From positions 1 to 16,612 of the forward strand of contig NZ_JAJCLZ010000031.1 of the NCBI RefSeq assembly GCF_020559915.1: a DNA stretch of 16,612 bases, given 5' to 3'. Position numbers and translations under genes: made by a program. Shown here in pieces: positions 1 to 12,431 of the stretch. The notes beneath the pieces are model-generated. The model searched no databases, was not told the origin of the DNA, and worked only from the letters and a program-made list of their open reading frames with translations. Positions within the stretch are counted from its first letter, which is position 1, and each line of letters starts with the position of its first letter. The stretch comes from Ruminococcus sp. 210702-SL.1.03 (GTDB lineage: Bacteria; Bacillota; Clostridia; Oscillospirales; Ruminococcaceae).

Positions 1-778
1 CGCAACGTTTGTCGGCGGCATCATTTCAACTCACGCGCTCACGTGGAGCGCGACGCGTGGGACATGGGTCAGCATTTCCAGCAGCTAATTTCAACTCACG
101 CGCTCACGTGGAGCGCGACATCGCCAAAACCGCAACACCAGCTCTGCTCCTCATTTCAACTCACGCGCTCACGTGGAGCGCGACCGGAGGGTTGGGCGCG
201 CCGGCTCGACGACACAAACCTCATTTCAACTCACGCGCTCACGTGGAGCGCGACCATAAGAGCCCTGCGCCATGCGCAGACAGGGCAATTTCAACTCACG
301 CGCTCACGTGGAGCGCGACCCTCCTGATACTGATGTTCCCGCGACTGTAAATATTTCAACTCACGCGCTCACGTGGAGCGCGACGTCCCTATCCGCGCGG
401 AGCTGCAACCATTTGTACATTTCAACTCACGCGCTCACGTGGAGCGCGACCTAGACGGCTTGACTCGCTTACTTCGCATGCACATTTCAACTCACGCGCT
501 CACGTGGAGCGCGACCGGCGTACATGGCCCGGAGGGGGTATCGCTGCATTTCAACTCACGCGCTCACGTGGAGCGCGACTTAATACAAAATGTATTATAA
601 TAGTACTATAATGAATTTCAACTCACGCGCTCACGTGGAGCGCGACCAATTTTTTCAGGTGCTTAAAATACCATTCTGACATTTCAACTCACGCGCTCAC
701 GTGGAGCGCGACGAAAGCGCTAACGAACGTGCAGGGGTCAGCGGACATTTCAACTCACGCGCTCACGTGGAGCGCGAC

Positions 779-812
779 TCGGGGGTTCGATTCCCCCTAA
801 CTCCATTTTAAA
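779..812. other. CRISPR spacer 12: contains the 3' end of a tRNA-like gene
   Basis: The spacer contains a complete T-arm: stem GGGGG (781-785), loop TTCGATT (786-792) and stem CCCCC (793-797). It is followed by a 7-base acceptor strand TAACTCC (798-804) and a discriminator A (805). The loop is the canonical T54-T55-C56-R57-A58 form. This looks like a tRNA or tmRNA 3' end, the usual attachment core of integrating elements. It is part of the array, not a tRNA gene of this locus, because the 5' half is absent. Confidence 0.85.
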
Positions 813-976
813 ATTTCAACTCACGCGCTCACGTGGAGCGCGACCACACCAAATTGGTGGTATAATATAATCAAGGACATTTCAACTCACGCGCTCACGT
901 GGAGCGCGACACTTTGCCCACGAACTAGACCGCATGTGTTCGATATTTCAACTCACGCGCTCACGTGGAGCGCGAC

Positions 977-1208
977 CAAAAACATATGTAAAACTACTTG
1001 ACAGCACACCATTTCAACTCACGCGCTCACGTGGAGCGCGACATTAGTTTCATCGTTGTTACCTCCGTATTTAGCCCATTTCAACTCACGCGCTCACGTG
1101 GAGCGCGACCCAGCTCTTCGACGATTGACGTTAAGCAATCATATTTCAACTCACGCGCTCACGTGGAGCGCGACTGATTTTATTATAGCACCAACTTGGT
1201 GTGCTGTC
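977..1208. other. CRISPR spacers 15 and 18: overlapping pieces of one phage promoter
   Basis: Spacer 15 (977-1010) ends with GACAGCACACC. The reverse complement of spacer 18 (1175-1208) begins with the same 11 bases. Merged at that overlap they give TTGACA, a 17-base gap and TATAAT, with the dyad CACACCAAGTTGGTGC filling the gap, so together they cover a consensus promoter with a built-in operator. Spacer 13 (845-878) carries a variant of the same element: CACACCAAATTGGTG followed by TATAAT, 3 mismatches in 29 aligned bases. Confidence 0.85.
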
Positions 1209-1303
1209 ATTTCAACTCACGCGCTCACGTGGAGCGCGACTAACGATTTTATCGTTAATTTCCTCCGAGATTCTATTTCAACTCACGCGCTCACGTGGAG
1301 CGC

Positions 1304-1448
1304 TGTTGCCCGCCGCGCAAAACCCAAAAAACGCAACAATCCGTAAGTAAGCGTGAAAAATATACAAAACCCTCAAAAACCCTGCAATTACAGCGTTTTC
1401 GGAGTGCAATAAACTGATTGATGTGTAATGATGTAAATATATGGTGTC
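1304..1448. repeat. Candidate prophage left end with transposase-site-like repeats
   Basis: The presumed terminus TGTTGC (1304-1309) is mirrored by GCAACA (1333-1338). Two related blocks follow: CAAAACCC plus A-run, C and GCAA at 1318-1338, and CAAAACCCTCAAAAACCC plus TGCAA at 1365-1387. Looser relatives with CTTGAAAAT lie at about 1556-1573, 1627-1638 and 1731-1746. Spaced copies of one motif near the terminus are what transposase A binding sites (L1, L2, L3 in Mu) look like. No protein-DNA evidence is possible from sequence alone. Confidence 0.45.
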
Positions 1449-1497
1449 AAAAAAATACCGCCAAAAATAGCTGTTTTAATGCTGTTTTGGCGGTATT
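1449..1497 (-). terminator. Rho-independent terminator of the repressor operon
   Basis: AATACCGCCAAAA (1454-1466) and TTTTGGCGGTATT (1485-1497) form a 13-bp perfect inverted repeat with an 18-base loop. On the minus strand the right arm is followed by seven T (plus-strand A run 1449-1455). It therefore ends leftward transcription from the repressor/TPR operon before it reaches the CRISPR array. Confidence 0.8.
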
Positions 1498-1600
1498 AAA
1501 TTTTAGCCGTTATAATCTGTTTTAGCGTTTTAAAAACTGTTTTAATTTCTCGTAAACCCTTGAAAATGCGGCGTTTAGATGCGTTTTAATATTAAAACAG
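1471..1600. repeat. Cluster of YGTTTTAA repeats
   Basis: The core YGTTTT(A) recurs at 1471-1479, 1482-1488, 1517-1524, 1525-1533, 1536-1545, 1581-1590 and, inverted, 1591-1600. The last two form the dyad GCGTTTTAATATTAAAACAG. Similar copies reappear in the late leader at about 11829-11878. The spacing and the partial likeness to the first half of the Mu transposase site (YGTTTCA) suggest binding sites for a phage protein. Which protein is unknown. The segment 1501-1790 otherwise holds only the short motifs listed separately and no gene. Confidence 0.5.
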
Positions 1601-1656
1601 TATTGCTGGAACAGTGGTTGCGACCGCTTGAAAATAGGTCATTTTTTAATGCCAAT

Positions 1657-1708
1657 ATACCAACCAACTGCTTTATTTAATCCCAACTGGTTGGTATTAA
1701 AACCAACT
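1657..1708. repeat. ACCAAC inverted and direct repeats
   Basis: ATACCAACCA (1657-1666) and TGGTTGGTAT (1688-1697) are a 10-bp perfect inverted repeat 21 bases apart. Further ACCAACT-type copies occur at 1664-1669, 1683-1688 and 1702-1708. It lies in the non-coding stretch between the presumed left end and the stop of the TPR gene. Candidate operator or transposase-accessory site; role unknown. Confidence 0.45.
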
Positions 1709-1790
1709 ATGCTACTTAAAAGGTCTCTATCCCTTGAAAATACAGGCTTTTGAGTAGCGCGGCTGTTATTTGAACAGAGCTTTTTCCTCT

Positions 1791-2459
1791 TTACAACTCA
1801 GCATTTGCCTTTTTCTTTTTCCTAGGACGCGGTTTGTATACATAGCCATTTTTCTTTTTCTCTCTCAGCTCGTCTATCTTAGAGGCGGCAAATAGTTTCA
1901 TATCTTTATATTTTAACTTCTTTACTTCCCTCAGAAATTTGAGACCGCCGTCAATGTTGTTCATTTTTACATACACGTCAGCTACTCCGTTTACCGCAGG
2001 AGTATAGGTGTTATCGATGCTAAAAGACGTAAGATACGCTTTGAGCGAATCTTCAAATTGATACTCACCCTCATATGCGTGAGCAAGCTGCCACCATATT
2101 TCCGCTTTGCTTTGCGTAAGCTGATCTGCGACATAATCTCCCATGTCAATCTTTTGCCGCGGCGTACCGCTCCATGTTGCACCACAGTCAATAAACTTGT
2201 TCAAATAATCAATCGCATGCGGTCTGTATTCCGCTCCGGCAAGAACATAGCATTGCGATACAACATACAGCTTGTCCTTGTTCTCTGGCTCACCGCATAA
2301 TCTGACAGCTTCCATCAACAAGGCTTTTTTATTTTCAAAAGTTTTTTCTAATTTCAGAACTTTGCCTATATAAAAAGGGCTAACATCTCTCCCTGAAAGA
2401 TGATTATAGATCTGCAAAGCAAGCTTGTAGTCGGATTTTTCCTTTGTTTTAAACAGCAT
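1791..2459 (-). CDS. TPR-like protein in the repressor operon
   Basis: 222 aa. The middle (about residues 55-180) reads as paired helices typical of tetratricopeptide-like folds: AEIWWQLAHAYEGEYQFEDS followed by a helix with TYTPAVNGVADVYVKMNNID, then FLREVKKL. The C-terminal 25 residues are very basic (KPRPRKKKKA). Its ATG starts directly after the TAA of the repressor gene with no gap, and a GGAGTG site lies 12 bases upstream, so the two are translated from one message and probably coupled. TPR proteins act as protein-binding scaffolds. A partner in the repressor pathway, or a lysogenic-conversion function, is possible but not shown. There is no signal peptide or membrane segment. Confidence 0.75.
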   Translation of the reverse strand: MLFKTKEKSDYKLALQIYNHLSGRDVSPFYIGKVLKLEKTFENKKALLMEAVRLCGEPENKDKLYVVSQCYVLAGAEYRPHAIDYLNKFIDCGATWSGTPRQKIDMGDYVADQLTQSKAEIWWQLAHAYEGEYQFEDSLKAYLTSFSIDNTYTPAVNGVADVYVKMNNIDGGLKFLREVKKLKYKDMKLFAASKIDELREKKKNGYVYKPRPRKKKKANAEL

Positions 2460-3167
2460 TTATATCACTCCGATCACCTTTCCGCGGCAATATATATCAT
2501 CATATTCGTGCAGATTTATATCGTCATATTCTGGATTGAGAGAAATCAATTTATCGCCGCCGAACTTCTTTATAAATCCCTCGTCGTTGATTATAAAGAT
2601 GCCTATATCGCCAAGCTCCACTGACGGCTGAGATTTTATAAGCACAAGATCGCCGTCATGAAATCTGGGTTCCATGCTGTTTCCGGAAACTTTGAGCGCA
2701 AAGTTTGCTTCACTGGTCTCAGAGCTCTCCTCAACCTCTATCATTTCTTTGTCGCAGTTATCAAGATAAACTCCCGTTCCTGCACTTGCAGGCAGCGAAT
2801 AATATTCAATAAAAATAGTGTTTTTACGCTGCTCCAGTGGCGTTTTTGCCGATTCAGAAAGAACTATCGCGCGCTCCAGCAACTGTCCTTGCTGGAAAGC
2901 ATCTAACTTATTATAGTATGTAAGCAATTCCTGTTCATCAGCGGTCAGAGTTTCCGCTGGTGAGCTTTTTTCTTTACCTGTTAGGAGAACATATGGAGAA
3001 ATATCAAGAAACTCACAAATGGGGATAATATACTTTGCCGGTGGGTCAGTTTTTCTATTTTTCCAATTGGTCATTGTGCTTGTATTTATGCCTATATGAT
3101 TGCATAAATCAGATTGTTTAAGTTCTTTTTTATCCAGATATGATAAAACATTATCAATAATAGACAA
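2460..3167 (-). CDS. S24/LexA-type prophage repressor
   Basis: 235 aa from a TTG start at 3167. I chose this start because an AAAGG site lies 11 bases upstream and the XRE helix-turn-helix begins at once (about residues 15-40, with SDLCNHIGINTSTMTNWKNR). Extending to an upstream Met would cross the operator region and add a non-HTH tail. The C-terminal half is an S24 self-cleaving peptidase: cleavage site Ala129-Gly130 in PASAGTG, nucleophile Ser164 in SGNSMEP, and general base Lys200 or Lys201 in GFIKKF. The Ser-Lys spacing is as in LexA. It should hold the early promoter shut and be inactivated by RecA-stimulated autocleavage, linking prophage induction to DNA damage. That differs from phage Mu, whose own repressor is not of this type. 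It is divergent from the early operon. Confidence 0.93.
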   Translation of the reverse strand: MSIIDNVLSYLDKKELKQSDLCNHIGINTSTMTNWKNRKTDPPAKYIIPICEFLDISPYVLLTGKEKSSPAETLTADEQELLTYYNKLDAFQQGQLLERAIVLSESAKTPLEQRKNTIFIEYYSLPASAGTGVYLDNCDKEMIEVEESSETSEANFALKVSGNSMEPRFHDGDLVLIKSQPSVELGDIGIFIINDEGFIKKFGGDKLISLNPEYDDINLHEYDDIYCRGKVIGVI

Positions 3168-3224
3168 AATAAATCCAACCTTTCTGTGCAAATATACAAA
3201 ATTCACATTTGTGAGCAAACCTGA

Positions 3225-3253
3225 TTGACAAATCCCCAAACGTGAGCTATAAT
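3225..3253 (+). promoter_or_regulatory. Early promoter (consensus -35/-10)
   Basis: TTGACA (3225-3230), a 17-base gap and TATAAT (3248-3253) match the vegetative sigma-factor consensus perfectly on the plus strand. Transcription should start near 3260, giving a roughly 100-base leader before the first early gene at 3362. The operator pair begins right at the expected start site, so repressor binding would block initiation. Confidence 0.85.
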
Positions 3254-3261
3254 ATATAATG

Positions 3262-3315
3262 ATATACGATAGTGAACCCAATAGGCGCAATTATCCCTTG
3301 TTCACTATTGTATAT
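3262..3315. promoter_or_regulatory. Inverted operator pair in the divergent control region
   Basis: ATATACGATAGTGAAC (3262-3277) and GTTCACTATTGTATAT (3300-3315) are inverted copies with one mismatch in 16, separated by 22 bases. They lie between the leftward repressor gene and the rightward early operon, the position of operators in transposable phages. The leftward promoter for the repressor must be near here; TTGGGT plus a 17-base gap and TATATA on the minus strand is a weak candidate. Assignment to the S24 repressor is inference from position. Confidence 0.7.
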
Positions 3316-3361
3316 TATATCGCAAAAGTAACATTTAGTCAACAGAATGGAGTGAAAAATT

Positions 3362-3766
3362 TTGACTGTAGAAGATTGGAAAGAAGTTGAAACACGCTTA
3401 TCTATTCCGTATAGCTCTGTAAAGCTTAAAATTGACGGATATGATGTGACTATCGGTCACGCTATGGAAAAGCCTTTAAAATACTGCTTAGCAATATACA
3501 TCGACGGTATTTTTAAAACCAAATGGGTCCTTGAAGACTGTGAGATACGCCGCCGATTTTGTAGCAAGCATACAAAAAGTCTGCTGACAGCTAAAGAGAA
3601 AAAAGCTCTTGACCGAGAGCGCAAAGCGTTTCGAGAGGAAGTTTTGAAAAAGTCAACCTACGACTGGTACTCGCCTTACTGGAACTCGTTTAGACGACTA
3701 AAAGCTCATCTTATCAAAAATAACAAATCAATTGAAATAGGGGAGGACGCATATGAAGTGGACTGA
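3362..3766 (+). CDS. Early phage protein of unknown function
   Basis: 134 aa from a TTG start at 3362 with GGAG (3349-3352) nine bases upstream. First gene of the early operon. The N-terminal half alternates beta-like strands (VKLKIDGYDVTIGH, LAIYIDGIFKTKWV). The C-terminal half is basic and helical, ending in RRLKAHLIKNNKSIEIGED. It recalls a small protein family I associate with Clostridia phages, but no function is known to me. It overlaps the next gene by 14 bases. Confidence 0.75.
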   Translation: MTVEDWKEVETRLSIPYSSVKLKIDGYDVTIGHAMEKPLKYCLAIYIDGIFKTKWVLEDCEIRRRFCSKHTKSLLTAKEKKALDRERKAFREEVLKKSTYDWYSPYWNSFRRLKAHLIKNNKSIEIGEDAYEVD

Positions 3767-3980
3767 AGACGGTCAGCGCAAGGCTTCGCTGGCAAATGAA
3801 CTTTTTTGGCTATTTGTTGTCGCCGGGCTTAAAGTAAAAGACGTTGCATATCGGATCGAAGACGGCGAAGAAGTGTACGTCATTACTATGACGAATAATT
3901 ACACATACCGCGTCAATGTGACTTGCGACAGCCCAATGACTGCGGTATATGACGTAGTAAACTTTATGAAAAACAAATGA
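3753..3980 (+). CDS. Small early phage protein, unknown
   Basis: 75 aa. GGGGAGG lies six bases before the ATG, inside the end of the preceding gene, so expression is probably coupled. The sequence is predicted mixed alpha/beta with a strand-rich centre (EEVYVITMTNNYTYRVNV). I recognise no motif. Product unknown; supported as a gene by the ribosome site and tight operon packing. Confidence 0.65.
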   Translation: MKWTEDGQRKASLANELFWLFVVAGLKVKDVAYRIEDGEEVYVITMTNNYTYRVNVTCDSPMTAVYDVVNFMKNK

Positions 3981-3991
3981 GGTGACCATAT

Positions 3992-4207
3992 ATGGATCAG
4001 AATAGAACTAAGCAGAAAGTGCTTGAAATATTTAATGAAGTGAAGAACACATCGTTCAGGAGCCTTGAGGACGCTGTAGAGGAGAACGGCATGGCATACG
4101 TTTTTGACGTGTGGCTAAGATACGAGGGTATCGTAGGATATACGTCAGACATCTTTGAGGTGCTGAACGCGGTAGGATTTAACATATCGATGCAGGAGGA
4201 TTGGTAA
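3992..4207 (+). CDS. Small early phage protein, unknown
   Basis: 71 aa, acidic and mostly helical. GAGGTG lies about seven bases before the ATG and there is an 11-base gap from the previous gene. Reads like a small soluble regulator or host-takeover protein, but nothing specific is seen. Confidence 0.65.
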   Translation: MDQNRTKQKVLEIFNEVKNTSFRSLEDAVEENGMAYVFDVWLRYEGIVGYTSDIFEVLNAVGFNISMQEDW

Positions 4208-4208
4208 T

Positions 4209-4469
4209 ATGAGCGATGAATCTAAAGCAAGCATACTTGTTATCACATGGGCAGCTGCGTTTTGCGTGGGCTTGGCAAAAGGCGAGAGCACAGGGCTGCT
4301 CATCATTACGCTTGCAACAGCTGTTTTCGCAACGATCATACTGCTTGATATGTTGTGCGAACGAGCGAAAGCGGAGATACGGCTGAAACGCCGCCGACTG
4401 GCAATAAGAGAACGATTCTGCCGCGAAATGGCGGAGATCGAAAGGGGCTGTGATAATGAGCATAGGTGA
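4209..4469 (+). CDS. Small two-helix membrane protein
   Basis: 86 aa. Two hydrophobic segments (about residues 9-25 and 29-46) are joined by a short turn (KGEST). A highly basic cytoplasmic tail follows (RAKAEIRLKRRRLAIRERF). GCAGGAGG sits nine bases before the ATG and only one base separates it from the previous stop. The shape is holin-like, but the position in the early region beside the Ner-like gene argues against lysis. Superinfection exclusion or membrane anchoring are alternatives. Unknown. Confidence 0.65.
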   Translation: MSDESKASILVITWAAAFCVGLAKGESTGLLIITLATAVFATIILLDMLCERAKAEIRLKRRRLAIRERFCREMAEIERGCDNEHR

Positions 4470-4650
4470 AAATTTCAAAAACAAGCGCATTGAACGCGAC
4501 CTGTCGCAGGAAGAGCTCTCAAAGCTTTCCGGTGTGTCAAAGCCGATGATCTCATATATCGAGCGCGGCAAGCGCGTTCCGTCGGTACTTACCGCCCAGA
4601 AGATCGCCCGCGTACTGCGCTGCACCATTGATGATCTTCTGGCAAGCTGA
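4456..4650 (+). CDS. Ner-like XRE helix-turn-helix regulator
   Basis: 64 aa, a bare XRE/Cro fold: the HTH is at about residues 15-40 (LSQEELSKLSGVSKPMISYI, then ERGKRVPS). I start at ATG 4456, eight bases after AAAGGGG; the GTG at 4450 is too close to that site. It overlaps the previous gene by 14 bases. In Mu the small Ner protein sits between repressor and transposase genes and turns down early and repressor promoters. This gene has the same place and size class, so that role is likely but inferred. Bases 4651-4740 hold no gene, only a weak CCGAG/CTCGG hairpin. Confidence 0.85.
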   Translation: MSIGENFKNKRIERDLSQEELSKLSGVSKPMISYIERGKRVPSVLTAQKIARVLRCTIDDLLAS

Positions 4651-4740
4651 TAGATGCCGAAACCGAGTCGGAAAAGGCTCGGTCTGTCGGGGACGGTCTC
4701 CCGGCACTGATGATGGCAGACCAAGTAAGGAGGTGTATTT

Positions 4741-4944
4741 ATGACGCTAAAGGAATTTAAGGCGCAAATGCTGGCGATCACAGTAGCTCAGGCTAAGGTA
4801 CTAGCCGAAGTAAGCTGTCTTGAGGACATAAAAATAGAGCCTGAACAGCTCCGCAGGAATGTTGCGACCATTCTTGCCGTCCTCACAGAAACCGAAGAGT
4901 ATCTGCTTAGCATAGCGAACGAGTGTTCTGGCTCTGATATATAG
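4741..4944 (+). CDS. Small helical early protein, unknown
   Basis: 67 aa with AAGGAGG eight bases before the ATG. It is predicted almost wholly helical (EFKAQMLAITVAQAKVLAEV; LRRNVATILAVLTETEEYLL) and acidic. Lies directly before transposase A. No motif recognised. Confidence 0.6.
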   Translation: MTLKEFKAQMLAITVAQAKVLAEVSCLEDIKIEPEQLRRNVATILAVLTETEEYLLSIANECSGSDI

Positions 4945-4966
4945 TATATCAGAAAACAAATGTTTT
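4934..4966. repeat. Two adjacent dyads upstream of transposase gene
   Basis: CTGATATA-TAG-TATATCAG (4934-4952) is a perfect 8-bp inverted repeat whose centre is the stop codon of the preceding gene. AAAACA-AA-TGTTTT (4953-4966) follows with no gap. They end 13 bases before the ribosome site of gene A. Could be an operator or an mRNA structure that limits transposase production. No T-run, so not a classic terminator. Confidence 0.45.
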
Positions 4967-4991
4967 GTCAAGACCTGTGGGAGGTGAAAAC

Positions 4992-6959
4992 GTGGATCTT
5001 TTGACTGTAAAAGACGCGGCAATGCTTAAAGGCTGCAGCGAACAGTATGTACAAAAATTGTGCAAGAGCGGCAAACTCTCTTGCGTGACCGAAATGAATG
5101 AACGTAATCGTCCGAGGTATATGATTCCCGTTTCATCGCTTTCGGCAGAGCTGCAGACAAGATACTACAAGCAGAAAGGCGAAACAAAAGCTGCTGAAAT
5201 ACAGCTAAAACACAGTTTAGAGCCTGTTAAAACCATAGAGGATTTTACCGCCCAGCAGCGTGAGCTGATACAGAAATGGATCACGATACTTTCTGACTGG
5301 CAGCAATGCCGCGAGAATTACGCAGGCCATAAGACCGAAGCGGACAAGCTGTACATTGCTAAATGCAAGCTCGAGCACCCTGATGTAAAGGTGTCAATGG
5401 ACATCATTTATCGCAAATGGGCAGCGTATAAAAAGGGCGAATTGCAAGGACTATGCGAGAATCGCGGCGGAAGCAATCGCGGCAAGAGCCACATAGATCC
5501 TGAGATATGGGAACAGTTTTGCTACCTGTATTTGTCAGAAAATAAGCCTACGGTATCGCGCTGCTATGAGCTTACCAAGACATGGACAGCTATCAATTAC
5601 CCCGACGCGGCGGCAGATTTCGCAAGCGAGCAGTCTTTTAGGCGGCGCATCAAAACTGAGATACCGCAGGCGGTACTCATCTATATGCGTGACGGCGACA
5701 AAGCCATGAAGGACAAATGTCTGCCGTATATCAGCAGAATGTATGACCAACTGCACGCTAACGATGTTTGGATAGCTGATAACCACACATTCGACATCCA
5801 ATCATACGATGAGGACAGCGGCATGATACACCGACTGTATCTTACGGCATTTCTGGACGCCAAAAGCGGCGTACTGGTCGGCTGGAACATATGCGACAGC
5901 CCTAATTCGCAATCAACGATAATCGCGCTTCGGCACGGTATCATGCGATTTGGAATACCCAAGGCGGTGTACTTTGACAACGGTCGTGAATTTCTTACTC
6001 ACGACGTGGGCGGCAAAGGTCATAGGTCACGAAAGACTGATAACGAGGAGCTTGAACCTCCGACCATACTGCAGCGGCTCGGCATAGAAATGCACAACGC
6101 TATCGTTAGAAACGCTAAAGCGAAGCCGATAGAGCGCACATTTTCGACCGTTACCCTGCAGTTTGCGCGAATGTTTGAGGGCTACTGCGGCGGCACTATC
6201 ATGCAGCGACCGGAAAGTTTGAAACGCCGTATCAAGGACGGCAAGCTCCCTTGCGATTTTGAAGTACGGGAACTGTTGGAAGACTGGATAGACGGCGACT
6301 ACAATGTACAGCAGTACGGCGGCTCTGAGTCATCATTTAAAGGCATGAGCCGTATAGAGGTCTGGAACAAGGACATAAAGCGCGTCGGCGTAAGAAAAGC
6401 TGCCGAAGCAGATCTTAACCTCATGCTCATGCGCTCGACTAGGGTACAAAAAGTCAAGAGAAACGGCGTATTTATCAGCATAGCGGGCGAAAAAGTGTGG
6501 TTCTACGACCCAGAAGATACTTACAGACATCTCGGCGAAGAGGTATATGTGCGCTATGATCCCGCCGACCTGCGGCAAGTACGAGTATACAGCAGCGAGG
6601 ACAAGTATCTATGGACATGGCGCAGCGCGAACGAGCTGCTTGTAGACTATATCACAGAAACCAAAGAAGAAATATCTGACGCAATGGCTGTACAGCGCCG
6701 CACACAGCGGTTTATCAAAGCGGAAGCTAAAGAGATCACTGAGGGTCTTAACAGCGATCGCAGGATAGACCTAGCCGCGGCAGCTGCGCTCAAAGCGGCT
6801 GACGGCAAATCAGCATTTAAGATCATCATGCCTACTAACGTTATCGTAGTACGCGCGGACGAAGAAAATGAAGAGATATGCCAAAAAGCAGCCGGCGACA
6901 GCGTAGTCATTGATCTGGCGAAGATGAACCGAAATATTGAGAAGAGAAAAGAGGAGTGA
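4992..6959 (+). CDS. Mu-type DDE transposase A
   Basis: 655 aa (Mu A is 663) from GTG 4992, seven bases after GGAGG; the upstream TTG at 4965 has no such site. Residues 1-55 form a winged-helix-like DNA-binding domain (LTVKDAAMLKGCSEQYVQKL). The catalytic RNase H-like core has Asp263 (WIADNHTFD), Asp329 (VYFDNGREF) and Glu381 (KAKPIERTF). This spacing is close to Mu A D269/D336/E392. The remainder (about 480-600) is the beta-barrel and C-terminal region that contacts protein B. It cuts and joins phage ends to target DNA for integration and replicative transposition. The stop overlaps the ribosome site of gene B. Confidence 0.96.
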   Translation: MDLLTVKDAAMLKGCSEQYVQKLCKSGKLSCVTEMNERNRPRYMIPVSSLSAELQTRYYKQKGETKAAEIQLKHSLEPVKTIEDFTAQQRELIQKWITILSDWQQCRENYAGHKTEADKLYIAKCKLEHPDVKVSMDIIYRKWAAYKKGELQGLCENRGGSNRGKSHIDPEIWEQFCYLYLSENKPTVSRCYELTKTWTAINYPDAAADFASEQSFRRRIKTEIPQAVLIYMRDGDKAMKDKCLPYISRMYDQLHANDVWIADNHTFDIQSYDEDSGMIHRLYLTAFLDAKSGVLVGWNICDSPNSQSTIIALRHGIMRFGIPKAVYFDNGREFLTHDVGGKGHRSRKTDNEELEPPTILQRLGIEMHNAIVRNAKAKPIERTFSTVTLQFARMFEGYCGGTIMQRPESLKRRIKDGKLPCDFEVRELLEDWIDGDYNVQQYGGSESSFKGMSRIEVWNKDIKRVGVRKAAEADLNLMLMRSTRVQKVKRNGVFISIAGEKVWFYDPEDTYRHLGEEVYVRYDPADLRQVRVYSSEDKYLWTWRSANELLVDYITETKEEISDAMAVQRRTQRFIKAEAKEITEGLNSDRRIDLAAAAALKAADGKSAFKIIMPTNVIVVRADEENEEICQKAAGDSVVIDLAKMNRNIEKRKEE

Positions 6960-6961
6960 TC

Positions 6962-7882
6962 ATGTTTGAATTTACAGAGCGCCAGCAGTGGGCACTGGAC
7001 AAATTTCGCGAGCTCAGCGCAGAGCTGGGCAGCGGAAACAAAGCAGGAGAACAGGTAGGCGTATCCAACGCCACGATGTCAGCTATACGCTCCGGCACAT
7101 ACCGCGGCAACGTGGACAATCAGCTGGCAAAGCTCATCGCGTATTTTGAAACTAAGGAGGAAGCGGCAGGAACGTATGACCCTACCGAATATGTAGACAC
7201 ATCGGTATCGTCCAGCGTGTACGATACTATCCGCAACTGTCAGCTCAAGGGCGGACTTGCGATCGCCTGCGGAGATGCAGGCATAGGCAAAACACAGGCG
7301 GCAAAGCAGTTTGCCAAGGAGCACGCCAGCAGCTGCATATACATAAGCGTAAATCCGTGTATCAAATCGCCAAAGTCGGTGCTCAAGCTGTTGGGCAGCA
7401 GATTTAACATATCTACATCAAGCCTCGACGAGCTTTGGCTAGCAGTCGCTAACAAGCTCTCTGACGGTATGGTGCTCATTATCGACGAAGCTCAGCACCT
7501 CGGCATCAGGACGATAGAAACTCTCAGGAGTTTTTCCGACTATTTTGACGGCAAGGGACAGACGCTGGGAATATGTTTTGTCGGCAATCCTGAGACCGTA
7601 TCGCGGCTGGGCGGCAGGCAGAAAGCAGAGTTTGCGCAGATACGCAACCGCACCAAGCAGACAAAGATATTTACCTCATCGCAGATAAGCAGCAAGGATA
7701 TACGCCTGCTGTTTCCCGCCATCGAAGAAAAGTCGGCGGAAGCCGAATTTCTGCTGAAAATAGCACACAGCTCACAGGCGGTGCGCGGAGCTGTCAACCT
7801 GTACTCCAACGCATATGACAATGGCAATACCACATACAAGGGACTTGTCGCGATGGCAAAATTCATGGAACTGGAGGTGTGA
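6962..7882 (+). CDS. Mu B-like AAA+ target-selection ATPase
   Basis: 306 aa (Mu B is 312). ATG 6962 lies five bases after GAGGAG. Residues 1-60 are a helix-turn-helix (KAGEQVGVSNATMSAIRSGT). Walker A is GDAGIGKT (104-111) and Walker B is MVLIIDEAQ with Asp175-Glu176. An arginine-rich sensor region follows. The protein polymerises on target DNA with ATP, delivers targets to transposase A and protects the element's own DNA from self-insertion. It sits two bases after the A gene, as in Mu. Confidence 0.95.
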   Translation: MFEFTERQQWALDKFRELSAELGSGNKAGEQVGVSNATMSAIRSGTYRGNVDNQLAKLIAYFETKEEAAGTYDPTEYVDTSVSSSVYDTIRNCQLKGGLAIACGDAGIGKTQAAKQFAKEHASSCIYISVNPCIKSPKSVLKLLGSRFNISTSSLDELWLAVANKLSDGMVLIIDEAQHLGIRTIETLRSFSDYFDGKGQTLGICFVGNPETVSRLGGRQKAEFAQIRNRTKQTKIFTSSQISSKDIRLLFPAIEEKSAEAEFLLKIAHSSQAVRGAVNLYSNAYDNGNTTYKGLVAMAKFMELEV

Positions 7883-7885
7883 CAG

Positions 7886-8080
7886 ATGAAACATGGCAAA
7901 AATCCGACCAAAGCGCAGAAGCGGATAATGACATACTACCGACTATGCTATCAGGACTGGCTCGTCACGAAGTGTACCGACAAGGAGCTGCACATAGTGC
8001 ACCGTTACACGGATACGCAAAGGGTGCTGCGAAAAGTCAGCTTTGAACACGATACTCGCTCCGCAGAAAGGAGCGTTTAA
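7886..8080 (+). CDS. DUF6906-like small phage protein
   Basis: 64 aa. GGAGGTG lies a few bases before ATG 7886, only three bases after gene B ends. The pattern MKHGKNPT..QK..., QDWLV and ELHIVHRYTDTQRVLRKV matches my memory of the DUF6906 family of Bacillota phages, whose function is unknown. Basic, with a short beta-hairpin core. Confidence 0.75.
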   Translation: MKHGKNPTKAQKRIMTYYRLCYQDWLVTKCTDKELHIVHRYTDTQRVLRKVSFEHDTRSAERSV

Positions 8081-8081
8081 G

Positions 8082-8261
8082 ATGCCAAAGATACATCTTT
8101 GCAACATTTTTGATTGCGAGCGTGTGCGCCGCAATCAGTGCTGCAACTACTGCAATTACCGTATGATATGCAAAAATCGCTGCCTTAATAAGCACGACCT
8201 TTGCGGGCAGATGATATTTGCTGAAAATCGAAAGGAGCTTGAACATGAACACAGAAAGTAA
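8082..8261 (+). CDS. Cysteine-rich small protein, probable zinc binder
   Basis: 59 aa from ATG 8082, nine bases after AAAGGAG; the in-frame ATG at 8043 lies inside the previous gene with no site. Eight cysteines (C7, C12, C20, C21, C24, C30, C34, C41) within 35 residues suggest one or two metal sites. The C-terminus overlaps the next gene by 17 bases. No family recognised; a DNA- or protein-binding zinc module is a reasonable guess. Confidence 0.7.
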   Translation: MPKIHLCNIFDCERVRRNQCCNYCNYRMICKNRCLNKHDLCGQMIFAENRKELEHEHRK

Positions 8262-8502
8262 GCACAAAAGGCTGTCGAAAGCAGCAAGTTTGACCATACC
8301 GAAGGACATGAGGCTTGCCGCAGGCATACTGCCCGGTACGGCGGTAGATCTTACTGAGGTAAACGACGGTATACTTATCTCGAAGCACGTCCCCATATGC
8401 CGCTTCTGCGGCAGCCCCGAAAAAGTTGTAGAGTATCGCGGCGAGGAGATATGCGCCAAATGTGCCGCAAAAATATGCAAGGAGGCGACCGGAAATGCTT
8501 GA
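8245..8502 (+). CDS. AbrB-type DNA-binding domain fused to a zinc ribbon
   Basis: 85 aa from ATG 8245, seven bases after AAAGGAG. Residues 10-50 have the SpoVT/AbrB swapped-hairpin pattern (SLTIPKDMRLAAGILPGTAV, then GILISKH). Residues 53-80 carry a CxxC...CxxC zinc ribbon (CRFCGSPEKVV and ICAKCAAKIC). AbrB domains dimerise and bind DNA as transition-state or antitoxin-type regulators. This is probably an early-region transcription regulator; targets unknown. It overlaps both neighbours slightly, so it is co-expressed. Confidence 0.8.
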   Translation: MNTESKHKRLSKAASLTIPKDMRLAAGILPGTAVDLTEVNDGILISKHVPICRFCGSPEKVVEYRGEEICAKCAAKICKEATGNA

Positions 8503-9148
8503 ACGCGCTGATGAGAAGATACGCCGCTATAAGGCGATAAAGCAAAAGATAGCCGAGCTCAAAGCAGAAGTTGACGGCATAGAAGCAGAGTTCCTCAAGG
8601 CTATGGAAAGCGACCTCGAGGACACGAAATACAAATCGGTATCATATTCTGACGGCGAGGGAAACAAGGTAACGGCGACCGAAGCTGAAAGCTTGAAAGT
8701 CATCTATCCGTCTTTCCTGAAAAACATTTTCGGGGCGGCGTACAAAGACGTAGTTACAGAAGAGGTAAGCTACAAGGTTTCGGCAGGAGCTGCGCGTATG
8801 CTTATCGCGCTGTATAATCGTGAGTATGTCAGCGGCGGAACGGTAGATCAGCTTGTCAAAACGCTGGGACTTGACGAGCGTACAGAAAAGGCACTTGTCA
8901 AAAAACTCAAAGGCAAGAAGTTTGACACTGACGTTAAAAATCTCAGGAAATTCGGCGGACTTGATGAAGAAACCGCTAAGGAAAACGCATATCTTGTATC
9001 AGAAATATGCGTATGGGAAGATTTCATGCGGCTCATGGAGATAAATCAGCGTACATCGGAAAGCGACATTGCCGAAGCGCTCAAATGGATAGACGGAGCT
9101 ATCACCGTAGATCAGACAGCCAAGATAAAGATAGACATCGCAAACTAA
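8495..9148 (+). CDS. Coiled-coil early protein, unknown (Mu gam position)
   Basis: 217 aa from ATG 8495, following AAGGAGG inside the end of the preceding gene. Residues 1-40 are a charged coiled coil (KIRRYKAIKQKIAELKAEVD). The centre (about 45-100) is strand-rich; the C-terminal half is helical, with repeated RTEKALVKKLKG-like segments. Mu encodes the end-binding nuclease inhibitor Gam in this part of its early region, and Gam also starts with a coiled coil. I see no clear Gam signature, so this stays a positional suggestion. Confidence 0.7.
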   Translation: MLERADEKIRRYKAIKQKIAELKAEVDGIEAEFLKAMESDLEDTKYKSVSYSDGEGNKVTATEAESLKVIYPSFLKNIFGAAYKDVVTEEVSYKVSAGAARMLIALYNREYVSGGTVDQLVKTLGLDERTEKALVKKLKGKKFDTDVKNLRKFGGLDEETAKENAYLVSEICVWEDFMRLMEINQRTSESDIAEALKWIDGAITVDQTAKIKIDIAN

Positions 9149-9161
9149 AGGAGGAGGGGCT

Positions 9162-9683
9162 ATGGCGACCAAAGAACAGATAAGACGTATATACGGCATG
9201 GCGGCGGCATTGGGTATAAAAGGCAGCGGAAAAGATGACCTGCTGCATGAAATGGTATATGGGCTTACGGGCAAGACATCCATCAAAGAGCTTACTGATA
9301 AAGACGTACAGTCTGTGATGGGCGAGCTCGTGCACCGCATGAGGTTTGCCGAAGCTCCTATAAAGTCTAAAAAGCCCAAGAAGCAGGAAGCTGATAACGA
9401 AGAGATCGGCAACTACGGGATGGCGACCAAAGAACAGCAGCGGCTTTGCTGGCGCTACTGCTATCGACTGAAAGAGCTTGACACTAAGCCTCAGCCGACA
9501 GATGTAGGCGACAGAATGGTAGGCGCTATCAAAAAGGTCTGCAATACTAACATAGTAAGCAAAGAAGAACCGTTCCGCTGCGTGACGCAGGAAGACGCGG
9601 CAAAGCTCATAGAACAGCTCAAACGTTATGTCAACACCGCAGAGCGGCGGGCTAAAAGGAGTGGTAAGCTTGTCGGAAGTTAA
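9162..9683 (+). CDS. GemA/Mu gp16-like protein (DUF1018)
   Basis: 173 aa with AAGGAGGAGG before ATG 9162. The N-terminal half has the DUF1018 layout (EQIRRIYGMAAALGIKG, LLHEMVYGLTGKTSIKEL). A basic linker (KSKKPKKQ) leads to a second half beginning again with MATKEQ and ending in a helix (AAKLIEQLKRYVNTAERRAK). In Mu, GemA modulates host genes and DNA supercoiling, and its gene precedes mor, as here. The MATKEQ coding sequence is an exact 18-base repeat (9162-9179 and 9420-9437), pointing to internal duplication of the N-terminal motif. Confidence 0.8.
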   Translation: MATKEQIRRIYGMAAALGIKGSGKDDLLHEMVYGLTGKTSIKELTDKDVQSVMGELVHRMRFAEAPIKSKKPKKQEADNEEIGNYGMATKEQQRLCWRYCYRLKELDTKPQPTDVGDRMVGAIKKVCNTNIVSKEEPFRCVTQEDAAKLIEQLKRYVNTAERRAKRSGKLVGS

Positions 9684-10005
9684 GATAAAATATGAGGAAC
9701 TCAGCGACGAGCAGAAAAACCTTGTTGACTGCATAGGTGCAGAGGCGTTTATAAAGCTGGTCACCTGCTACGGCGGCACTACGCTGTATGTGCCAAAAGC
9801 CGACAGCCTTGCGCGAAGCAAACGTGACGAAGCGATACGGGCGGAGTTTGACGGATACAATTACCGTGAACTTTGCCGCAAATATAAGCTCAGCGAGCGC
9901 ACTATACGGTCAATTACCGCAGAGAAAAATAATCGGCTGCGAAATGCACCGCTTGCTGGACAGATAACCATAGAGGGACTTGAAGACCTAAAAACTGATT
10001 GCTGA
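9670..10005 (+). CDS. Mor-family transcription activator
   Basis: 111 aa from TTG 9670, eight bases after AGGAG; upstream Met codons lie inside GemA. The N-terminal dimerisation part has the family signature YGGTTLYVPK (34-43). The C-terminal half is a helix-turn-helix (YRELCRKYKLSERTIRSITA). Mor (and its relative C) activate Mu middle and late promoters that lack a good -35 box. The gene closes the early operon exactly as in Mu, overlaps GemA by 14 bases and is followed by a strong inverted repeat. Only one Mor/C-type gene is visible. Confidence 0.92.
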   Translation: MSEVKIKYEELSDEQKNLVDCIGAEAFIKLVTCYGGTTLYVPKADSLARSKRDEAIRAEFDGYNYRELCRKYKLSERTIRSITAEKNNRLRNAPLAGQITIEGLEDLKTDC

Positions 10006-10039
10006 AAAAAAGTGAAATGCTTCGGGTGTACAGAACCGT

Positions 10040-10085
10040 AAAAGAATGGTATCATTGGTATAACAACTGATGATACCATTCTTTT
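10040..10085 (+). terminator. Early-operon terminator, possibly overlapping a Mor-dependent promoter
   Basis: AAAAGAATGGTATCAT (10040-10055) and ATGATACCATTCTTTT (10070-10085) form a perfect 16-bp inverted repeat with a 14-base loop, 35 bases after the mor stop. The arms end in A- and T-runs, so it can act as an intrinsic terminator. The loop contains TATAAC (10059-10064), a fair -10 box with no -35 match upstream, which is the form of a Mor-activated middle promoter. Both readings fit the position. Confidence 0.65.
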
Positions 10086-10103
10086 ATGATAGGGGGCAAG
10101 ATC

Positions 10104-10340
10104 ATGAACAGTCAGGAGATCATTACGATAGTATTGCAAATAATACTTACAGGCGGTATCGGCACGATCGCATACTTTCTAAAGCGCACAATAGACCGCA
10201 TAGACAAGTGCGAATCGGACATCGCTAAGATAAAGGAAGACTACATAACCAAAGAGGACTTTTTTCGAGAGCAGGGAAAAACTGACCGAAAACTGGATCG
10301 AATGATGGATATACTGCTGGAGATAAAGGGAGGAAAATAA
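10104..10340 (+). CDS. Membrane-anchored coiled-coil protein (Mu gp25/DUF2730-like)
   Basis: 78 aa from ATG 10104, seven bases after AGGGGG; ATG 10086 lies in the terminator stem. One N-terminal membrane helix (IITIVLQIILTGGIGTIAYF) is followed by a coiled coil (RTIDRIDKCESDIAKIKEDY) and a C-terminal helix (RKLDRMMDILLEI). The TM-plus-TKEDF layout and the order with the next two genes match the Mu gp25-26-27 block. A small holin or lysis role is the main alternative. Confidence 0.7.
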   Translation: MNSQEIITIVLQIILTGGIGTIAYFLKRTIDRIDKCESDIAKIKEDYITKEDFFREQGKTDRKLDRMMDILLEIKGGK

Positions 10341-10341
10341 C

Positions 10342-10668
10342 GTGGATATGGAAAAGCAGATGCAGCTTATAAAGGCTGGAAACTTTAAGGAAAACAACGG
10401 GTCTGTCATGCGCACTATCAATATGCTGCGCCACAAGTATCATAAGCTCAAAAGCGTTAAGTATGCGCTGCCTGATATTTCTGAGGGCGAGGTGCTCGAC
10501 AGCGTGAACTATCTGCACGAAGCCGGATATATACACCTGCGCAGCATACTCACCAAAGAGCCTGCCGCGCTTAGTGACTGCGAGTTTGACGAACTGGAAG
10601 CCAAGCTGACGGCTAAGGGTATAAGCCTGCTGGCAGGCGGCATATCTGACCCCTGTATCGTTGTGTAA
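10342..10668 (+). CDS. Mu gp26-position winged-helix-like protein
   Basis: 108 aa from GTG 10342, eight bases after GGGAGG. The pattern (LDSVNYLHEAGYIHLRSI, LTAKGISLLAGG, ending SDPCIVV) recalls the small phage family labelled VpaChn25_0724, which neighbours DUF2730 and DUF3486 genes in Mu-like phages. That family name is from memory and moderate in certainty. The fold looks like a winged helix. It directly follows the gp25-like gene and precedes the gp27-like gene by 12 bases. Confidence 0.7.
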   Translation: MDMEKQMQLIKAGNFKENNGSVMRTINMLRHKYHKLKSVKYALPDISEGEVLDSVNYLHEAGYIHLRSILTKEPAALSDCEFDELEAKLTAKGISLLAGGISDPCIVV

Positions 10669-10680
10669 GGGGGCGAGCTT

Positions 10681-11229
10681 ATGAGCCGCAGGAAACACAG
10701 CAAGATAGATAAGCTGCCGCCCGACATAAAAGATACCGTAGAGGATATGATACGCAGCGACTTCACTTACTCTGAGATCGCCGATTATATCATGGTACAG
10801 ACAGACGTGCCAATATCGACAGCATCTATCTGCCGCCACGCGCGCAGCCTTAACGAATCCATCGAAACGCTTCGCATGGCGCAGGAAAATTTTCGCTGCA
10901 TAATGGACGAGGTCAATCGCTATCCCGATATGGATACCGGTGATGGCATCATACGGCTGCTGTCGCACTATGTGCTCGAATCAATACACAACACGCCGGA
11001 AGAACAGTGGAAGTCGATAAAGCCCGAAGAGCTTATCAAGCAGGCGACATCGCTAGTCAAGGCGGCAAGCTACAAGAAAAATATCGACATCAAGAATGAG
11101 GATATACTCTCAGCGGGCTTTGAGCAGGTCAAGGGCATGGTCTTTGAAGCGATGGCTAAAGAACGCCCCGACTTGTATAAGGACGTTGCTAAGTTCTTAG
11201 ACGAGAAAAGGAGTGAAGCTGCCAAATGA
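10681..11229 (+). CDS. Mu gp27-like protein (DUF3486), putative small terminase
   Basis: 182 aa with GGGGG eight bases before the ATG. The N-terminus (SKIDKLPPDIKDTVEDMIRS, SEIADYIMV, ISTASICRHARSL) is the DUF3486 helix-turn-helix typical of Mu gp27. The C-terminal half is helical. The family is thought to be the small terminase subunit, which recognises phage DNA for packaging. The stop overlaps the next start as ATGA, so translation is coupled. Odd point: another small-terminase-like gene follows at 11967. Confidence 0.85.
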   Translation: MSRRKHSKIDKLPPDIKDTVEDMIRSDFTYSEIADYIMVQTDVPISTASICRHARSLNESIETLRMAQENFRCIMDEVNRYPDMDTGDGIIRLLSHYVLESIHNTPEEQWKSIKPEELIKQATSLVKAASYKKNIDIKNEDILSAGFEQVKGMVFEAMAKERPDLYKDVAKFLDEKRSEAAK

Positions 11230-11705
11230 TATATGTCGTACACGTCACAAGCGGCATGGAGTACGAGACCGTGCAGGCACTTGTGATGCAGGGGATAAAA
11301 GCATATGCGCCGAAGCACCATCTGCTTGAGCGCAGGCGAGGAGAATGGACTACGGTATCCCGCTATCTTTTTCCGGGATATGTTTTCGCAGATCTGCCGC
11401 AGCTTACCGACGAAGTCTACTACAAGGTACGCAATACAGACGGCGTTATACGTTTTCTCGGCAGCCCATCGCCCGTGCCGCTCTCATATTCGGAACAGCG
11501 CAGAATGCAGTGGATATTCGACGCAGGCGTGCTCGGCGTAAGCAAGGGTCATGTGCATGACGGTAAGATCGTCATAACATCGGGTCTGCTGCTGGGCAGA
11601 GAAAACGATATAATCAGTTTCAGCAAGCGTCAGAAGCGCTGCAAGCTCTGCTGCGTTATAAACGGACGAAAGCATTATTTCAGCCTTTCTGCTGAGCTGG
11701 ATTAA
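11226..11705 (+). CDS. LoaP-like NusG paralogue (processive antiterminator)
   Basis: 159 aa. Residues 1-100 form a NusG N-terminal domain: MIYVVHVTSGMEYETVQAL, then the hallmark RYLFPGYVFADL (46-57) and VRNTDGVIRFLG. The C-terminal 50 residues are KOW-like (GKIVITSGLLLGRENDII, then CVINGRKHYFSL). NusG paralogues of the LoaP group in Bacillota bind RNA polymerase and a leader RNA hairpin and allow it to pass terminators. The gene starts inside the gp27-like stop, is the last of its operon, and is followed by a leader with a hairpin and an intrinsic terminator in front of the head genes. Antitermination of late genes is inference from this context. A transcription-translation coupling role is the alternative. 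Confidence 0.87.
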   Translation: MIYVVHVTSGMEYETVQALVMQGIKAYAPKHHLLERRRGEWTTVSRYLFPGYVFADLPQLTDEVYYKVRNTDGVIRFLGSPSPVPLSYSEQRRMQWIFDAGVLGVSKGHVHDGKIVITSGLLLGRENDIISFSKRQKRCKLCCVINGRKHYFSLSAELD

Positions 11706-11724
11706 CAAATGTCTGACATCTTAT

Positions 11725-11748
11725 CGGCAGGTAGATACGTCCCTGCCG
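11725..11748 (+). promoter_or_regulatory. Leader hairpin, candidate antiterminator recognition RNA
   Basis: CGGCAGG (11725-11731) and CCTGCCG (11742-11748) form a 7-bp stem with a 10-base loop, with no T-run after it. It starts 20 bases after the NusG-paralogue stop and about 170 bases before the terminator. LoaP-type factors need an RNA hairpin in the leader. This one is well placed, but the role is inferred. Confidence 0.5.
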
Positions 11749-11841
11749 CCGGGAACAGACTGCATACATATTTCCGCGCGACATTTTGCTTTATGAGCCG
11801 AATATCGCGAATGGCGAAGCTATGCCCGCTCAAAACAGCGT

Positions 11842-11870
11842 TTTACACCCTATTTTAATGGCGTTTAAAT
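11842..11870 (+). promoter_or_regulatory. Candidate promoter before the head-gene terminator
   Basis: TTTACA (11842-11847), 17 bases, TTAAAT (11865-11870): 5/6 and 4/6 matches to consensus. It lies in a stretch with several YGTTTTA motifs like those near the left end (TCAAAACAGC at about 11830-11839, GCGTTTTA at 11839-11846, TCGTTTTAAAG at 11870-11880). A transcript from here would meet the terminator at 11915 almost at once and would not carry the hairpin at 11725. Weak evidence. Confidence 0.35.
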
Positions 11871-11914
11871 CGTTTTAAAGCGTGCGGCGGTGAAATTACC
11901 CTATGAACTATTGC

Positions 11915-11939
11915 AAGGCGCTCACAGCGCCTTATTTTT
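11915..11939 (+). terminator. Intrinsic terminator upstream of the packaging/head genes
   Basis: AAGGCGCT (11915-11922), loop CAC, AGCGCCTT (11926-11933), then ATTTTT. A textbook terminator on the plus strand, only 12 bases before the ribosome site of the next gene. It should stop the middle transcript ahead of the late genes unless an antiterminator acts. The region 11706-11966 contains no gene. Confidence 0.9.
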
Positions 11940-11966
11940 CGTCCATCGGTAAGGAGGGAATAAAGA

Positions 11967-12431
11967 TTGAATCCGAAAAGAAAACAGGCTATAACGCTGC
12001 TTGACGAAGCTGCGAAAAGTGTGAACGATGTAAAAGTAAAGACCAATGTAAGAAGCCTCGGAGAACTTACCGAGGCTTTTATAAATACTCCCGATAAGGC
12101 TGAACGCAGGAAGATAGCAGCCGACTACAAAAAGCAGCATACCGAACTGCAAAACTTTATCGACGCTAACCCCGAGCTCGTCAATGCAGAAGTGGAACGT
12201 GCCCTGCTCGCCGCAGCACTTGGAGGAGAATACACCGAAGAAGAAGTAAGAGTAGACGCCAGAGGGCGCAGGACGATAAAGCGTAAGGTCAAAAAGGTAG
12301 CTCCTAACCCATCAGCAGCGCTGAGCTATCTGCAAAACAAAGACAAGGAAAACTGGTCGCCTAATCCTAAGGCAGATCCTGAGCTGGAGGATACGTCGGA
12401 GATAGAGGAGGAGCTGTATGGCAAAAAGTAA
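11967..12431 (+). CDS. Small-terminase-like protein (A118/PBSX type, C-terminal part)
   Basis: 154 aa from TTG 11967, eight bases after AAGGAGGG. The C-terminal half has the pattern seen at the end of many Bacillota phage small terminases: LLAAALGGEYTEEEVRVDAR, a basic strand (TIKRKVKKVAPNPSAALSYL), then ENWSPNP. The N-terminal 80 residues are helical, without the usual clear helix-turn-helix, so DNA recognition may lie with the gp27-like protein. Its stop overlaps the large terminase start by 14 bases. A scaffold or adaptor role is an alternative. Confidence 0.65.
   Translation: MNPKRKQAITLLDEAAKSVNDVKVKTNVRSLGELTEAFINTPDKAERRKIAADYKKQHTELQNFIDANPELVNAEVERALLAAALGGEYTEEEVRVDARGRRTIKRKVKKVAPNPSAALSYLQNKDKENWSPNPKADPELEDTSEIEEELYGKK

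Follow-up and report, generated by a model that had tools for sequence, protein, structure and literature searches.

A CRISPR array of Ruminococcus sp. 210702-SL.1.03 breaks off inside its outermost visible repeat, and the sequence of a Mu-like prophage follows at once. Did the phage jump into the repeat, or did the array simply end there? The DNA analysed, here called the window, is a stretch of 16,612 nucleotides (contig NZ_JAJCLZ010000031.1, positions 1 to 16,612). Very probably, a Mu-like phage transposed into a single repeat of this type I-C-like array, which would have silenced its spacers.

Read directly, the window has 20 repeats of 32 bp, ATTTCAACTCACGCGCTCACGTGGAGCGCGAC, beginning at 23, 88, 153 ... 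1275, with spacers of 32–38 bp between them. Nineteen of the 20 were complete and identical to one another. Because window position 1 falls within a further spacer, the array continues past the window edge. Repeat 20 matched the others for 29 bases, up to ...GTGGAGCGC, and then had TGTTGCCCGCC where GAC was expected. Its three lost bases were all at one end, and the remainder was without any difference. This agreed with the initial annotation, which had placed at 1275–1310 a repeat identical for 29 bases with an abrupt departure to TGTTGC. The features around the break are:

1–1303, minus strand (crRNA sense, repeat GTCGCGCTCCACGTGAGCGCGTGAGTTGAAAT): CRISPR array with 20 repeats and 19 whole spacers; orientation taken from the type I-C locus of R. 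bicirculans
1275–1303, minus strand: interrupted repeat, 29 of 32 bases, only the 5' GTC (crRNA sense) missing and the stem-loop whole; read directly
1299–1303, no strand: AGCGC, predicted left copy of a 5-bp target duplication, by analogy with the 5-bp duplications of relatives
1304–1322, plus strand: Mu-like prophage, left terminus TGTTGCCCGCCGCGCAAAA, from comparison with the left ends of relatives
1304–16612, plus strand: Mu-like prophage, left 15.3 kb; its right end is outside the window

The window repeat was two bases apart from the type I-C repeat of R. bicirculans, the two positions pairing with each other in the stem, so that the change is compensatory. The likeness of the repeats and the regular spacers, together with the cas genes adjacent to the similar R. 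bicirculans array, suggest a type I-C-like array. When 29 genomes from the genus and 396 from the family were searched for the repeat, R. bicirculans (G004) alone had it, and the exact repeat was absent from the viral_contigs collection. Spacers 7 (845–878) and 2 (1175–1208) shared similar motifs, ACCAA-TTGGTG with a TATAAT-like sequence; they may derive from similar promoter regions of mobile elements.

Base 1304, the first after the truncated repeat, was the terminal base of the prophage, and aligned with prophage left ends in R. bicirculans 80/3 and Ruminococcus sp. Marseille-P6503. The left end on contig C7 of the latter aligned with window 1303–1457 (69.6% over 158). The first 19 bases, TGTTGCCCGCCGCGCAAAA, differed at two positions from TGTTGCTCGCCACGCAAAA, found in Marseille-P6503 C7, R. 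bicirculans 80/3 and a water-deer Ruminococcus MAG, and the host bases preceding the terminal TG differed between the window and these relatives. The window prophage began with TGT and the relatives’ prophages ended in CA, their right ends being inverted kin of the left-end motif (e.g., TTTTGCGCGTCAAGCTACA). Marseille-P6503 carried two full related Mu-like prophages, and one further left end lay at the edge of a contig. Relatives’ prophages were about 30 kb long (29.7–30.1 kb, n = 3). Phage records and viral contigs held no close copy of the window prophage. The exact left end was absent from viral_contigs, and a degenerate form was found there in one contig only, an already known relative.

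Equal 5-mers flanked four of the five relative prophages having both ends on one contig: GATAT in R. bicirculans, AACGC in Marseille-P6503 C4, ACAAA in G317 and CCAGT in G332. The exception was the C7 prophage of Marseille-P6503 (G003), with the unlike flanks ATTAC and CAAGC, as expected from the rearrangements of replicative transposition or from an assembly break. A sixth prophage, in G002, had AACAC flanking each end; its ends were on two separate contigs and were paired partly by these like 5-mers, so it was kept separate from the other five. Since relatives mostly duplicate 5 bp, the bases duplicated in the window are predicted to be AGCGC. The break coincides with the left terminus of the family, and the junction is thus where an insertion by this family would place it. 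Chance does not produce a break that coincides, to the base, with the start of a terminus found at unlike sites elsewhere. The reading of the initial annotation, a Mu-like prophage with its left end within a CRISPR repeat, was borne out by this exact terminus, by family members at unlike sites and by their mostly 5-bp duplications. From these sequence comparisons, insertion within the repeat is well supported.

The prophage carried the following genes and sites:

1791–2459, minus strand: open reading frame behind the repressor gene, weak TPR match under Pfam’s cut-off
2460–3290, minus strand: phage repressor with CI-like HTH and S24 peptidase domain; reading frame as listed, the true start may be internal
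3225–3253, plus strand: sigma-70-type promoter match, 12/12, toward the lytic genes; consensus matching
4965–6959, plus strand: MuA-type transposase, 664 aa, domain match including the Mu C-terminal domain; profile match
6956–7882, plus strand: AAA ATPase of MuB type, adjoining the transposase (AAA_22; phrog_296 “DNA transposition protein”, 2.9e-49)
9162–9683, plus strand: GemA (gp16) homologue; domain match
11226–11705, plus strand: NusG-domain protein (Pfam PF02357, 5.5e-16; PHROG “transcription antiterminator”, 3.8e-22)
12418–13794, plus strand: terminase large subunit; domain match
13769–15253, plus strand: portal protein; no Pfam match (phrog_533, 1.3e-87)

A MuA-type transposase with a MuB-type ATPase beside it, GemA and head genes downstream, and unrelated insertion sites place this element among the Mu-like phages. 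The MuA profile of the transposase matched the Mu transposase structure 4fcy at 3e-15, and the nearest transposases found (68–73% identical) were in Ruminococcus genomes, three viral contigs and one faecal phage record. The NusG-domain protein is, to our knowledge, unusual among Mu-like phages. Close to the listed start of the repressor reading frame there was a minus-strand 11/12 sigma-70 match (3342–3314). The facing promoter-like sites between 3225 and 3342 look like a lysis-lysogeny switch, in a consensus scan that gave 9 promoter matches compared with 6.9 in shuffles.

Other origins of the junction were weighed against insertion. A natural leader end of the array, or a decayed terminal repeat, with the phage merely starting nearby, would agree with the place of the lost bases at the extreme edge of the last visible repeat. 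But the bases past 1303 are a phage terminus, and the 400-base stretch preceding the first repeat of R. bicirculans gave matches of only 8–11 bases with window 1304–1803. In R. bicirculans the leader-side repeat was intact; the changed repeats were at the far end and their changes were scattered. The phage terminus and this comparison contradict a natural array end or leader at the junction, and we give that origin almost no credence. A chimera, in which the assembler joined the array to a phage end, is highly improbable; repeats are a known cause of misjoins, but the break was exactly at the phage terminal base, and there was no evident shared sequence at the junction able to bridge a misjoin. 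Mu-like virions carry host flanks, so that an apparent resident prophage could have been assembled from packaged host DNA, or from a single insertion among the many of a population. Mu packages 50–150 bp of host DNA at its left end, compared with at least 1303 bp of a single flank left of the left end in the window, and even then the sequence would still document that the phage had entered this repeat. We consider such an origin more doubtful still than a chimera.

Insertion by transposition being preferred, the phage family might seek CRISPR repeats as a recurrent means of silencing immunity. The window itself and the precedent of S. pyogenes speak for this (Varble 2021, as cited in PMC9379143 and PMC10359306). 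But CRISPR-spaced repeats were beside none of 28 other ends of the family (0/28, some flanks short), and the target 5-mers of relatives were unlike, with nothing evident in common. The sequences flanking the 28 ends were, by eye, also unlike one another. Recurrent integration in repeats, of the S. pyogenes kind, was thus not encountered at these ends; targeted insertion was rejected on this count, and we regard it as having scarcely any likelihood. The 28 ends, taken from sampled genomes and one phage record, represent at most 23 insertions, a few of them perhaps being the two sides of a single insertion, and the shortest flanks among them were 126, 185 and 373 bases. A left-end pattern with two mismatches matched 85 of 396 genomes, many evidently by chance, for its reversed control gave matches as well; a subset of the matches was followed. 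Ends were accepted by eye in 12/17 left stretches (G001 and L006 being the same DNA) and 4/6 right stretches of a first set. The second set gave accepted ends in 7/28 stretches, five of the 28 being repeated from the first set and L008 being the Marseille C4 copy. Stretches without an accepted end were left out of the 28-end count. The insertion in the window was probably ordinary, untargeted Mu-like transposition.

Which side of the array was cut off? On chromosome II of R. bicirculans 80/3, a complete type I-C set (cas3-cas5c-cas8c-cas7-cas4-cas1-cas2) is followed by a leader and by an array in the sense GTC...GAAAT. That array had about 145 repeats, the first, leader-side ones intact and changed ones at the far end. 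On the strength of this arrangement we read the window array on the minus strand, with its broken end facing the leader; by this comparison only, the broken end would be the leader side. The phage would then, by the same comparison, separate 19 or more spacers from the promoter that serves them. The initial annotation had the prophage cutting 19 spacers off from the rest of the array. The 19 spacers stand, and the separation can be refined: it would be from the leader promoter, whether or not further repeats lie beyond the phage. Since the retained 29 bases contain the entire stem-loop, transcription and not processing should be lost. The 19 spacers and those behind them are probably silent.

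Transcripts from the phage could in principle replace those from the leader; the repressor gene and the reading frame behind it are both oriented leftward, toward the array. In their path is one further feature:

1447–1497, minus strand: intrinsic-terminator-like hairpin with a 13-bp outer stem and a U run, for leftward transcripts toward the array; from folding

The hairpin, at 1454–1497, folded at −21.4 kcal/mol, against a shuffle mean of −7.9 (z −5.5), and 0/200 shuffles equalled it. Of four relatives scanned, three (R. bicirculans and the water-deer and S2A_St_30 MAGs) had a hairpin followed by a U run ~145–150 bases in from the prophage left end. The stem sequences differed, with a changed stem in two of them, including R. 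bicirculans (G004), and another form in the third. The fourth, Marseille-P6503 C7, had its strongest scanned hairpin elsewhere, though the stretch of the window’s hairpin was conserved in the alignment. A simple consensus terminator scan omitted the window’s hairpin, probably due to a loop longer than the scan permits, and the two sites it listed were the chance number (1.9). Because this predicted leftward hairpin precedes the array, the phage end appears insulated, and read-through into the array from the phage repressor operon is made unlikely by it. A 9/12 promoter match directed at the array (1464–1436) overlapped the hairpin and was of the chance kind; going by such motifs, weak outward transcription from the phage end toward the array would still be conceivable.

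One of the 19 spacers resembled the phage’s own family:

647–680, minus strand: spacer 10 counted from the junction, 4/34 mismatches to a gene of the R. bicirculans Mu-like prophage

The matched gene encodes a D12-class DNA adenine methyltransferase (Pfam 2.1e-32) and lies ~0.9 kb short of that prophage’s right end; all four differences were synonymous. The best match of 1000 shuffles of the spacer against three such prophages had 9 mismatches. The other prophages had 5 (G002), 7 (Marseille C7) and 8 (Marseille C4) mismatches. The protospacer-adjacent bases were CTC, and TTC in G002; TTC is the type I-C PAM. A pattern for the spacer-10 stretch was found in 3 of 45 genomes of two genera (G004, G003 and G002), each carrying this Mu-like phage family, and was absent from viral_contigs. 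Nine methyltransferase loci were found in viral contigs, two being the Marseille prophages; three of the seven others were within 11 mismatches (9–11). Genes of this kind thus occur beyond the phage family, and spacer 10 may have been acquired from a different phage.

Matches of the remaining 18 spacers to these Mu-like phages were all weak; examples are 19/20 bases shared by spacer 17 with the Marseille-P6503 C4 prophage and 21/25 by spacer 1 with the C7 prophage. Against 50,697 phage records the window array gave five matches at E up to 1, none convincing. For the R. bicirculans spacers, 7 of 142 had weak matches to these phages at E 0.01 versus 11 of 710 shuffled, a modest excess, and none had eight or fewer mismatches ungapped.

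Taken together, we propose that a Mu-like phage jumped into one repeat by means of its MuA-type transposase, with a 5-bp staggered cut that would lie at repeat positions 4–8 in crRNA sense. Its nearest transposases and the repeat point to a Ruminococcus-like gut bacterium as host. The left end of the phage would then abut the leader-distal 29 bases of the cut repeat, and the right AGCGC copy is expected beyond the phage. The 19 visible spacers and those behind would lose the leader promoter, the leftward repressor transcript would halt at the hairpin before the array, and the spacers would fall silent. A spacer resembling the phage family may have aided the persistence of such a lysogen; given spacer 10, selection for the lysogen is possible. 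A bolder version is escape by self-insertion, in which a phage targeted by the array, through spacer 10 and perhaps through spacers beyond view, survived as a lysogen by landing between the array and its leader, the conserved end terminator turning any insertion at this position into a clean off switch for immunity. This we put forward only tentatively, as rather unlikely.

The locus offers a natural case, precise to the base, in which a transposing phage sits in a CRISPR repeat. The array appears to be cut on the side of its leader, and one of its spacers resembles the phage’s own family. It makes testable whether untargeted transposition plus selection can match the phages that integrate into CRISPR repeats. 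A second question is whether cells are left with a silenced yet intact memory, recoverable if the phage departs. In the titles and abstract openings covered, mostly outside the subscription literature, we found no report of a natural CRISPR repeat occupied by a Mu-like phage.

The S. pyogenes prophages reportedly rely on a site-specific integrase and concern another CRISPR type. Their integration into CRISPR repeats is described as recurrent and as neutralizing immunity (Varble et al. 2021, as cited in PMC9379143 and PMC10359306). As there, a temperate phage lies within a CRISPR repeat in the window; unlike there, it has a MuA-type transposase, the repeat is type I-C-like and there was no sign of targeting.

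For the Mu-like phage DMS3 of P. aeruginosa PA14, which is matched imperfectly by a spacer, part of the isolates are described as resolving the conflict by transposition at the CRISPR locus (PMC11406979). Seven of 18 evolved isolates had ~34–335 kb deletions centred on the CRISPR2 array, and the others had point mutations or small deletions (PMC11406979). The window likewise combines a Mu-like phage with an imperfectly matching spacer, the match here being to a relative of the family, but it is a natural sequence, and the insertion, confined to a single repeat, seems a simple one. Inactivation of CRISPR-Cas by IS insertions in cas genes is also described (PMC10359306). In both situations transposition breaks CRISPR immunity, the difference being that here a phage of ~30 kb (length from relatives) sits in the array.

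Among Mu-like prophages of Firmicutes, the Faecalibacterium phage Mushu is described with a 5-bp direct repeat (PMC5883640). In this it resembles the relatives of the window prophage. Bacillus phage BalMu-1 likewise has a Mu-type transposase, to which that of the window was only 34% identical. Prophages in CRISPR repeats are already known, and the present locus joins these with a transposing phage as the element and a repeat as the site.
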